In this document: positions 16,160 through 19,470 of the stretch, in pieces
Numbering within the stretch: the stretch's first letter is position 1
Layout: the number at the start of each line of letters is the position of its first letter
NCBI GenBank assembly: GCA_903898675.1
Contig: CAIUGM010000031.1
Coordinates: 124,001-188,000, forward strand
Length of the DNA stretch: 64,000 bases
Reading direction: 5' to 3'
Origin: an uncultured Verrucomicrobiota bacterium
GTDB lineage: Bacteria > Verrucomicrobiota > Verrucomicrobiia > Opitutales > Opitutaceae
Made by a program: the position numbers and the translations under genes
The notes under the pieces: generated by a model
What the model was told of the DNA's origin: nothing
Database searches by the model: none
Seen by the model: the letters and a program-made list of their open reading frames with translations, nothing else

Positions 16160-17380
16160 ATGCAAGAGGTCAAAAACACCCAGCGCGCCCTGGTCCGCAT
16201 CGGCTACGATGGCCGGGTCTACAAGACCTTCCGGGGTCCCCAGGCCTACGCCCGCTTTGAAACCGAGGTGCGGGTCCTCCGTTACCTCGAGCAGCGGGGC
16301 TGCGATTTTGTCCCGCGCCTGCTGGAGGCCGACGAGCCCAACCTGAAAATCACCACTTCCAACTGCGGTTCCCGCGTCGACCAGGTGAACCCGGAGCGGC
16401 TCAAGGCGCTCTTTGCCGAGCTTGAGACCTTTGGCGTCCGGCACGACGACCCCGAAATCCGCAACATCACCTACCGGCAGGCGGACGGGCGGTTCTGTGT
16501 CATCGACTTTGAATTCGCCACGCTGATCGGCGAGGCGGCGGCGGTTTCCGGGCCGCTCCCACCCGACCTGGCGTGGTCCGGCCTGACCCACCAGGGGCAC
16601 CTGCGCCCCAACAACGAGGATACCTTCCTCGCGCTCGAATTCGATGGCCGCGAAGTCCGCTACCTGGGCAAGACCGGCGCAGCCTCGCCGCTGAAGGCCG
16701 ATTTTGTCTTCGCAGTCAGCGACGGCATGGGCGGCGCCAAGTCCGGTGAATTCGCCAGCCGCATCACCAAGGACAAGATCACGCACCTGCTGCCGAAAGG
16801 CTTCCGCCTCGCCGCGCCCGGGCCGCAAAGCGGTTACAGCGACATCCTGCTCGAACTGTTCCGCGCCATCCACCAGGACCTGATCACCCTCGGTGAATCG
16901 TATGAGGAATGCCGCGGCATGGGCACCACGCTCAGCCTCTGCTGGCTGACGCCGGGGTGGATGTACTTTGGCCACATCGGGGACAGCCGGATTTATCATC
17001 TGCCCGCGGGCGGCGGGCTGACCCAGCTGACGCACGACCACGGCCACGTCGGCTGGCTGCGACGGAACGGCCGGATCACGGAACGGGAGGCCCGGGTGCA
17101 TCCCATGCGCAACGTCCTGCACCAGTCGCTCGGCGCCGGACACCAGTTTATCGAGCCGCAATTCGGCGTCCTGCCCTGCGGGCCGGGCGACCGTTATCTC
17201 CTGTGTTCGGACGGCCTGATCGAGGGCCTGTGGGACCGCCAGCTGGAGGAGATCGTGCGTGCGCCCGATCCCGCCCCGGTGGCCGAACGCCTCGTCGCCG
17301 CCGCGCTCGAACGCGCCGGTCGGGACAACATCACCGCCCTGGTGGTCGAAGCCCTCGCGCCAACACCGTCCAAGTCATGA
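16160..17380 (+). CDS. Kinase-like domain fused to PP2C protein phosphatase
   Basis: A 406-residue cytosolic protein. Residues ~140-395 are a PPM/PP2C phosphatase with its metal-site motifs: THQGHLRPNNEDTF, VSDGMGG, GHIGDSRIYHL, LLCSDGL and DNITALV. Residues ~8-125 resemble a very compact kinase/APH-like fold: Lys22 in VYKTF, Glu36 in FETEVRVL, an exact HxDxxxxN (His95, Asp97, Asn102) and a DFE at 116-118 in VIDFEFA. All key kinase residues appear present, but the lobe after DFE is almost absent. The stop overlaps the ATG of the next gene (ATGA). Ser/Thr phospho-signalling is likely; target unknown. Confidence 0.85.
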   Translation: MQEVKNTQRALVRIGYDGRVYKTFRGPQAYARFETEVRVLRYLEQRGCDFVPRLLEADEPNLKITTSNCGSRVDQVNPERLKALFAELETFGVRHDDPEIRNITYRQADGRFCVIDFEFATLIGEAAAVSGPLPPDLAWSGLTHQGHLRPNNEDTFLALEFDGREVRYLGKTGAASPLKADFVFAVSDGMGGAKSGEFASRITKDKITHLLPKGFRLAAPGPQSGYSDILLELFRAIHQDLITLGESYEECRGMGTTLSLCWLTPGWMYFGHIGDSRIYHLPAGGGLTQLTHDHGHVGWLRRNGRITEREARVHPMRNVLHQSLGAGHQFIEPQFGVLPCGPGDRYLLCSDGLIEGLWDRQLEEIVRAPDPAPVAERLVAAALERAGRDNITALVVEALAPTPSKS

Positions 17381-17747: not shown

Positions 17748-18125
17748 CTAGGACTTCAGCGCGGTTTGCGGCATGCGCTTCACCGTGACGAAGCGCGCAC
17801 GGAATAACTCCTCCATCAATTCGCGGGCCGGGGCCGGAATGCGCTTCACCAGATCCTCCATCGGGGGCAGCGCCGGGTCGGCGGACTCGGGCTCGAGGTT
17901 CTCCGCCTTGGGCGGCTGGCCGTAGAATTGCTCGGATCCGCGGTCCTGCGCAAGGAAAGCGGCCTCCTCCTCCGCCGAAGGACCGGCCGGAACGGAATCA
18001 TCCGGTGGCGGCGCATCCTTCACCAGCGCGGAAGGAGCACTCTCCTCCTCAGATTCTTTACTCCGCGATCCCTGCTCCCTTTTCCCTGCACCTTGCTCCG
18101 CGCCCTCAGGCGCGGCCGTCAGCCG
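17748..18125 (-). CDS. dnaX: C-terminal (tau-specific) segment of DnaX, -1 frame
   Basis: From the A9 run at 18126-18134 the -1 frame is open without a stop to 17748, adding about 125 residues. The start is a low-complexity acidic/charged linker ([18 protein letters not shown]). The end is a compact basic helical region ([20 protein letters not shown]) that looks like a folded domain. Taken alone the only start would be a GTG at 18023, with no ribosome-binding site, within the linker. I therefore read it as the extension made by frameshifting from dnaX; a full-length product would have about 504 residues. It is inferred, not shown. Confidence 0.65.
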
Positions 18126-18134
18126 TTTTTTTTT
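18098..18134 (-). other. dnaX: Programmed -1 frameshift signal in dnaX
   Basis: On the minus strand nine consecutive A (18134-18126) are followed by C. In the dnaX frame this reads AAA AAA AAC GGC TGA, so the heptamer A AAA AAC is in the correct phase for a -1 slip, and the zero frame stops two codons later. Nine bases after the heptamer a perfect seven-pair all-GC hairpin (CCGCGCC-TGAG-GGCGCGG, 18115-18098) is placed as a stimulatory element would be. Slippery A runs with such hairpins produce gamma and tau in E. coli dnaX, and an A9 run does so by transcriptional slippage in Thermus. Confidence 0.75.
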
Positions 18135-19261
18135 GAGCCGTCGTCCGGCAGGCTTTCCGCCATGGCCGCGAGCTCCTTGATCAGGCTGTCGATCGCGCGG
18201 GCCCGGCTGGCCTCGACAGCCTTGAGCAACGCCACCTCGAAATTGATCTTCTCCGACAACCCGTGCTTCACGCCGCCCTCGCCCTCGCGCAGGCCGTCGA
18301 GCAGGCGGGTGAGCTGCTCGGTGGTCATCGGGGTGCCAAGCGCCTCGCTGCTGCCGCCCTTGGCGATGGCGTCGAGCAGGGCGGTGCGGACATTGGCCTG
18401 CACATCCACGAGCAGGCGGTAAAGGTCGCGGCCGTTCTCGTCGCAGTCATCGACCAGCTCGATGATCTTCCGGTGATCGGCGGCCGCCAGGGCCGCGGCC
18501 AGCGCGGCGATCTTGCCGGCGGAGACGAGGCCGTAGACATCCAGGACGTCCGCCTCGCTGACCTCGTTGCCGCAGAAGGAAATCATCTGGTCGAAGATGG
18601 ACTGGGCGTCGCGCATGCCGCCGTCGGCCATGCGGGCGATGCTGCCGAGGGCGCCGTCGCTGACCTTGATCTTCTCCGCCGTGGCGATCTTTTTCAGCCG
18701 CTGCACGATCAGCTCGCTTGGGATGGGCTTGAGGTCGAACCGCTGGCAGCGGGAGATGATCGTCGGCAGCACCTTCTGCACCTCGGTGGTGGCGAAGATG
18801 AACTTCACGTGCGGCGGCGGTTCCTCGAGCGTCTTGAGCAGCGCGTTGAACGCCTGGTTCGAGAGCATGTGCACCTCGTCGATGATGTAGACCTTGAATT
18901 TTCCCTGCGCCGGCGCATAGCGGACCGTGTCGCGCAGCTCGCGCACCTGCTCGATGCCGTTGTTCGACGCACCGTCGATCTCGATCACATCCAGGCAGGA
19001 ACCGTCGGCGATGGACACGCAGATCGGGTCGTTGACGTCGAAGTCGGCCTTCGGCCCGCCGGTGACGTTGAGCGCCTTCGCAAAAATGCGCGCCGTGCTG
19101 GTCTTGCCGGTGCCGCGCGGCCCCACAAACAGGTAGGCATGGGCGATGCGGTTCCGGCTGATGGCATTCTTCAGCGTGCGGACCACGTGGTCCTGCCCGA
19201 CGACGTCGTCGAACGTCTGGGGGCGCCACTTGCGCGCAATGACTTGGTAGGATCCGGACAT
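18119..19261 (-). CDS. dnaX: DNA polymerase III subunit gamma (DnaX), zero-frame product
   Basis: The 380-residue zero-frame product is the clamp-loader ATPase. It starts [20 protein letters not shown] and has Walker [19 protein letters not shown], Walker [10 protein letters not shown], the SRC sensor ([10 protein letters not shown]) and AAA+ lid and collar domains. It ends at SKKNG just after an A9 run, where a -1 shift would extend it to a tau-like form of about 504 residues. The usual zinc-site cysteines appear reduced (a single Cys in DPICVSI plus another in GSCLDV). I start at ATG 19261 (MSGSYQV); the upstream frame to 19291 is a repeat-derived extension. SRP RNA lies upstream on the same strand. 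Confidence 0.93.
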
Positions 19262-19360: not shown

Positions 19361-19374
19361 AGTCAAAATGGAGT

Positions 19375-19470
19375 GGCCAGGCAATCCACGGCACTGGAAG
19401 GACGTCGTCACCGTTGCTGCCTTCCGGCCCTGGCGGGGTTCACGCGCCTGCGCATGCATGGCGCCTGGCC
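19375..19470 (-). ncRNA. ffs: Signal recognition particle RNA, small bacterial type (4.5S)
   Basis: On the minus strand the conserved apical domain reads CCAGGGCCGGAAGGCAGCAA, the universal SRP GGAAG tetraloop/AGCA symmetric-loop region that binds Ffh. The ends pair perfectly (GGCCAGGC 19463-19470 with 19375-19382), giving a 96-nucleotide rod, normal for the small bacterial form. A promoter-like TTGAAA-16-TACGTT ends seven bases upstream. It lies just upstream of dnaX, a known neighbourhood for this RNA. It directs cotranslational membrane targeting. Confidence 0.92.

Follow-up and report, generated by a model that had tools for sequence, protein, structure and literature searches.

Structure of the split dnaX gene

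The dnaX gene on the minus strand of the window (the whole 64,000-nucleotide stretch of Opitutaceae DNA analysed here) ends just past a run of nine A, while an open -1 frame continues beyond it. This raises the question of whether one gene yields both a short gamma and a long tau form of the clamp-loader protein and, if so, by what kind of slip. The features concerned are the following.

18119..19261, minus strand: dnaX zero frame, gamma form, 380 aa, with ATG at 19261 (TIGR02397, 421.7 bits; Pfam matches)
18126..18134, minus strand: putative A9 slippage run, which with C18125 also forms the heptamer A_AAA_AAC in phase
18119..18121, minus strand: zero-frame stop TGA, two codons past the A9 run, ending gamma
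18106..18108, minus strand: TGA of the +1 frame, within the loop of the hairpin, closing the third register after 6 codons
18098..18115, minus strand: seven-pair GC hairpin, CCGCGCC-TGAG-GGCGCGG, not conserved
17748..18125, minus strand: -1 frame tail, tau-specific, 125 aa, a poorly conserved linker and a conserved C-terminal module

The gamma-form product comprises the clamp-loader AAA+ ATPase, the lid and domain III, as assigned by TIGR02397 and by the Pfam families PF13177 (delta2), PF22608 (ATPase lid) and PF12169 (gamma/tau domain III, residues 234-360). At residue 376 begins the stretch TCA AAA AAA AAC GGC TGA, with a GGC codon before the TCA. The -1 frame begins with CGG CTG ACG at 18125 and runs for 125 codons to a TAG at 17750-17748. 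The zero frame and the -1 tail together predict a tau of about 504 aa, and the junction peptide KKKRLT would be expected if one A were added to the A9 run. Direct reading of the letters bore out the initial annotation on this anatomy, namely the nine A at 18134-18126 with the following C, the in-phase heptamer, the stop two codons on, the -1 frame of about 125 codons and the lengths of both products.

Nowhere else in the 3,519,022-base genome, on either strand, is there a run of nine A besides the one in dnaX. About five would be expected genome-wide from a first-order chain derived from the window, a figure that appears too low judging by the run lengths observed there; that the single run sits in dnaX is thus more than chance. 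The Lys codons of the window dnaX upstream of the run number 20 AAG and only 2 AAA, so the uninterrupted A run does not reflect codon habit. Counts of nine-A runs vary greatly among relatives. The window genome holds one A9/T9 match versus 18 (overlapping windows counted) in a genome of the same genus (G037), and in some relatives the matches elsewhere run to dozens or hundreds, so that the presence of an A9 need not imply its use.

The surroundings of the gene were also read. A small SRP RNA (RF00169, 59.6 bits) lies at 19372-19470 on the minus strand, directly upstream of dnaX and on the same strand as it. On the plus strand, a gamma-glutamyl cyclotransferase-like gene (PF06094, 17377-17736) is convergent with dnaX and ends 11 bases from the tau stop. 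A further plus-strand gene (16160-17380) encodes a kinase-like N-terminal part fused to a PP2C phosphatase (PF13672, 55.4 bits); the matches of its N-terminal part to Kdo/APH phosphotransferases were all below threshold.

Conservation of the split across the family

We searched 61 genomes of the family, of which 58 had dnaX, and 57 loci were readable through the site. The three genomes without a match are 67-87% complete. One locus that ends before the run (L061, in G018), a second, partial copy without the motif (L064, in G033) and a shorter duplicate of L065 (L039) were left out of the counts. The A run was present at the site in all 57 loci, as A10 in 46, A9 in 10 and A11 in one. In 56 of them, from 44 genera, the tau tail lay in the -1 register, and every one of these split genes had a zero-frame stop 1-6 codons past the run. 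The initial annotation had proposed an alignment of related dnaX genes; in this comparison A9 or A10 and the -1 tail are shared by 56 of the 57 loci. The exception was a family member with A11 (L007, in G032), whose dnaX lies in a single frame (register 0), a natural change of register by one A.

The third frame was closed as well. The +1 frame was shut within 7 codons in 53 of the 56 split genes, compared with a background of 20% in the rest of the tail (p 3e-33, a value that is overstated because the sequences are related). The +1 stop is partly bound to a shared motif, CTGATTGA, and the 56 genes are therefore not 56 independent events. In one family gene (L009) the +1 frame stays open for 81 codons.

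The same split was seen in fourteen named records (L169-L181 and L184). They are titled Opitutaceae, Opitutae, Opitutia or Opitutales, apart from L179, which is titled plainly Verrucomicrobia, and L177, titled Cephaloticoccus primus CAG34, and at least five of them appear to be loci already in the family count. Two other named records were read, one cut off (L182) and one Puniceicoccales MAG without the run (L194).

These data bear on the suspicion that the split is a sequencing or assembly error in the homopolymer and that the true gene is one frame. Homopolymer runs are error-prone, L007 does have a single frame, and one long frame is found in most class loci read from other orders. However, the split recurs throughout the family comparison, including the isolate record of Cephaloticoccus primus CAG34 (L177), and the zero-frame and +1-frame stops are conserved with it. 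The recurrence of the same split rules out sequencing error, and we give this explanation a negligible probability.

A run whose length differs between cells at the DNA level could also switch tau on and off by phase variation. The range of 9-11 A and the drift of register between species would suit such a switch, but A9-C is shared with L057, L046, L045 and L169, all of them near relatives, and both products would be expected to be necessary in every cell. Phase variation is accordingly very unlikely.

Selection and structure of the tau tail

The tails of the family end in a common module, LPxLxxLVxRIPxxxRExLDELFRAKFxxVxRV, and outside the C-terminal 40 residues they are poorly conserved. We compared 18 pairs of tails, hand-picked as close relatives (12 from the family and 6 from the order), with the first 18 bases omitted and out-of-phase columns uncounted. 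Mismatches by codon position numbered 660/648/1017, and by a hand count on the same pairs 57 of the 74 internal gaps were multiples of three. The third-position excess was absent or slight in two pairs (60/59/60 in L017/L024 and 48/46/53 in L072/L079). On the whole, the pattern is that of a translated sequence under purifying selection.

The poor conservation of the linker might instead be taken as a sign of a defunct tail, with gamma as the sole product. Decay of this kind is very improbable given the third-position excess, the mostly in-frame gaps and the conserved C-terminal module. In addition, where the run is missing in the wider order, the tail lies in frame 0.

An attempt to place the tail as a known tau domain, such as the C-terminal domains IV/V that bind helicase and polymerase in bacterial tau, gave no match. 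The tau-specific tail gave no Pfam match, an HMM built from the family tails matched none of 109 dnaX C-termini outside the order (no detectable similarity to them), and its AlphaFold model was poor, mostly low-confidence with a pTM of 0.23. The initial annotation had described the end of the tail as a compact basic helical region. What was predicted there is two short helices, at tail residues 89-94 and 98-109, with a pLDDT of 76-89 for the block.

Possible signals for ribosomal frameshifting

The in-phase heptamer would suit programmed -1 ribosomal frameshifting at A_AAA_AAC/G as the source of tau in the family, perhaps with some transcriptional slippage in addition. In 55 of the 56 split family genes the run ended at codon position 2 with the heptamer in phase, as A_AAA_AAG in 46 and A_AAA_AAC in 9, and the -1 direction is uniform within the family. 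Against this, the window site itself ends in AAC, a weaker heptamer in E. coli. Both tRNA-Lys genes, TTT and CTT, are present in the genome, so that the single-Lys-tRNA state of the E. coli type is not found here.

The perfect seven-pair, all-GC hairpin that the initial annotation had placed nine bases past the heptamer was present on direct reading, with a stability of -14.7 kcal/mol. However, it is not unusual for sequence of 65% GC, with z from -0.4 to -1.5 depending on the stretch chosen. The site ranked within the top 10% of tail positions for hairpin stability in only 5 of the 56 family genes, hairpins as stable being common elsewhere. The hairpin is therefore not conserved, and a role for it as slip stimulator gained little support.

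A slight excess of structure was seen downstream of the site in the family. In the stretch +2..+52 the mean z of the 56 genes was -0.68 and 25% of them fell below -1.5, compared with mean z values of -0.28 to +0.09 and 5-12% of genes in three distant controls. The corresponding share was 18% in the stretch just upstream and 12% in the longer stretch +2..+72. Shine-Dalgarno-like words occurred upstream of the run in 12 of the 56 genes (21%), against a background of 12.7%, and the window dnaX has no such word upstream of its run. On these 56 genes, the hairpin and the Shine-Dalgarno-like word were rejected as parts of a conserved signal, and the weak downstream structure excess remains.

Two features of the family loci described above also tell against the ribosome as the slipping machine. 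None of the 57 family loci has a run shorter than nine A, and the +1 frame is closed too, a closure for which -1 ribosomal slippage provides no reason. Together with the +1-register relatives in the order described below, these observations make the ribosomal explanation unlikely, though ribosomes may add to tau in the family. Thus recoding into gamma and tau, as first proposed, gained strong support from the comparison, while a hairpin-stimulated -1 ribosomal slip did not.

Three registers at one run in the order

To the family loci we added an order sample of 52 genomes. Three of these had no match, four belonged to the family and were included in its counts, and L168 was set aside as a duplicate of L164. 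The run was found at the same place in 39 of the 45 order loci outside the family. The tau register of these 39 loci was 0 in 15, -1 in 15 and +1 in 9, and the +1-register loci were spread over four families (f7, f13, f15 and f18). Across all 102 family and order loci, the run measured 9-11 A in 96 and was missing in 6; none had 7-8 A. Both non-tau frames were shut within 14 codons in 95 of the 96 run-bearing loci, and within 7 codons in 86.

The family-tail HMM matched 23 of the 40 loci tested (the 39 order loci and L007), always in the open frame and in four cases in +1. It found no match in the other 17, five of them +1, several of which looked similar at the end by eye. Among the six order loci without a run, the tail lay in frame 0 in five (judged by eye on the translations), and L164 had no tail. 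A broken A run accompanies a frame-0 tail in L076, while its sisters L072 and L079 are in register +1. Tails out of frame were thus found in 24 of the 39 order loci with the run, versus none of the six without it (Fisher p 0.007).

The register has changed repeatedly. A tree of 57 dnaX proteins, on which we relied, held 15 of the 57 family rows, 41 of the 45 order rows and one outgroup row, and gave at least eight register changes among run-bearing genes. The run-less, long-branched L162, L163, L164 and L167 were left out of it. An earlier tree gave 12 changes without the 'norun' rows and 16 with them; two of its outgroup rows, L124 and L130, had been given the label 'norun' despite their A9 runs, which affects the count of 16 and leaves that of 12 untouched. 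Stop signs were removed from the rows used for both trees. Sisters of unlike register included L166 (0) beside L160 and L161 (+1), and L165 (0) beside L154 and L156 (+1).

A proposed slippage mechanism for gamma and tau

The three registers bear on the choice of mechanism. In the +1-register genes a -1 ribosomal slip cannot make tau, while slippage of RNA polymerase could serve all three registers. Transcriptional slippage is also suggested by the criterion of PMC3711429, by which a direction that differs among orthologs indicates transcriptional realignment. The length of the run points the same way. The ribosomal heptamer needs only seven A, yet the minimum run at the site is nine. Closure of the +1 frame would likewise be expected from a mixture of A lengths. 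Further points in favour are the frame-0 tails of the run-less order loci and the two Lys tRNAs of the genome. The uniform direction within the family, with 56 of 57 loci in -1, speaks against this reading. Judging from the comparison of the genes, we consider programmed transcriptional slippage at the A9 the probable source of gamma and tau. The initial annotation had named transcriptional slippage of the Thermus kind as an alternative, and it is the one favoured here.

Under transcriptional slippage, RNA polymerase would stutter on the A9 run and release mRNAs with varying numbers of A. Those with nine A, or with any length that leaves the tail out of frame, would be translated to the nearby zero-frame or +1 stop and yield gamma. 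Those that had gained one A or four, or had lost two, would bring the tail into frame and yield tau, whose tail would link the clamp loader with the other parts of the replisome. We infer the slippage itself, its rate, the ratio of the two proteins and the task of the tail in tau.

The drift of the tail may be understood in the same terms. We lean towards the reading that the genomic frame of the tail moved between registers 0, -1 and +1, with the run and the stops of the two other frames retained throughout. Since slippage of RNA polymerase at the run would supply every register, the site would be register-neutral and the frame nearly neutral to selection.

Runs in dnaX beyond the order

For the class and phylum, 57 loci were fetched from a larger set of matches and 53 were read; L105 and L116 had no stop in the locus, and the motif did not pick up L126 and L128. 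In 10 of the 53, domain III was followed by nine or more A in a row. Two of these were split like the window gene (L129 and L136) and eight were fused, with both other frames shut within 8 codons in all eight. In the 43 loci without the run, Walker A and the stop were 437 codons or more apart.

Among 80 named loci (78 with the motif), nine carried an A8-A10 run after domain III in a fused frame (L199, L207, L209, L210, L214-L217 and L248). Both other frames were shut within 10 codons in seven of the nine; the +1 frame was open for 62 codons in L214 and for 49 in L217. The groups with such fused genes were Chthoniobacter flavus, Spartobacteria, Pyrinomonadaceae, Verrucomicrobiales, Bdellovibrionales and unclassified records. 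These fused loci of other groups are candidates for Thermus-like slippage, and slippage-type dnaX may be wider than the known cases.

Significance and comparison with known systems

The order provides a natural experiment, in which the same run is followed by a tail in each of the three registers, with run-less, single-frame genes alongside. Such a pattern helps to distinguish, on comparative grounds, recoding in transcription from recoding by the ribosome. It also illustrates how an essential gene with a disrupted frame can persist through a whole family, and it bears on why many bacteria retain gamma as a separate clamp-loader form. The anatomy suggests that gene callers are likely to annotate such dnaX genes as truncated.

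Split dnaX genes with A10 and suspected slippage have been in print since 2013. The GeneTack survey of that year, which took in four Verrucomicrobia genomes, described two-ORF dnaX with tau needing a shift in 17 genes from 12 genera (PMC3711429). Nine of the 17 had A10, three in Chlorobi had A9, A8 and A7, and transcriptional slippage was suggested (PMC3711429). Among the titles and abstracts returned by our searches of the open-access literature, none dealt with dnaX recoding in Verrucomicrobia or Opitutales, though the A10 species of PMC3711429, unnamed in its main text, may include the group; nor did we find the order-wide three-register pattern there. As far as these searches show, what is new is that the split is conserved across the family, that both wrong registers are closed and that the tail has drifted among three registers within one order. 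The window gene and its family resemble the GeneTack genes in that the zero frame is gamma with a stop directly past the run and the -1 frame is tau, and in the proposed transcriptional slippage; most family loci also share the A10 run. All 17 GeneTack genes were -1, unlike the Opitutales loci in registers 0, -1 and +1.

Two other systems have orthologs that differ in register at a slippery run. In Blochmannia, two of three genomes have a dnaX frameshift in a poly-A tract, for which transcriptional slippage was put forward as a rescue (PMC3017870). The orthologs there also differ in register at the tract, but this endosymbiont tract lies inside the tau-only region, and the case was interpreted as the rescue of a damaged gene and not as a switch between gamma and tau. 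Transposase orthologs of the IS630 family have their second frame in -1 or +1, which was taken as a sign of transcriptional realignment (PMC3711429). The dnaX loci share this property, the difference being that IS630 is a mobile element and dnaX a core replication gene.

Transcriptional slippage in Thermus dnaX and ribosomal frameshifting in E. coli dnaX are both established (PMC5009743). The E. coli gene slips at A_AAA_AAG, with a stem-loop and a Shine-Dalgarno element as stimulators. The window gene has the same kind of in-phase heptamer as E. coli dnaX and also a hairpin. It differs in the reversed roles of the frames, in a run of 9-11 A in place of a bare heptamer, and in a hairpin and Shine-Dalgarno-like word that are not conserved. 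There are also likenesses to Thermus thermophilus. Its dnaX undergoes transcriptional slippage on A9 (PMC1088944, PMC5009743), both wrong registers end soon after the run (PMC1088944), and its two Lys tRNAs may be relevant to polymerase slippage (PMC5009743). Nine is also the run length at which selection against slippage-prone runs appears in many bacterial genomes (PMC1088944). The window gene shares with Thermus the A9 run after the gamma region, the early end of the wrong registers, the two Lys tRNAs and, as we propose, gamma and tau from one gene. In Thermus, however, tau is encoded in the unslipped frame, whereas in the window dnaX gamma is the unslipped product and tau would need the slip.
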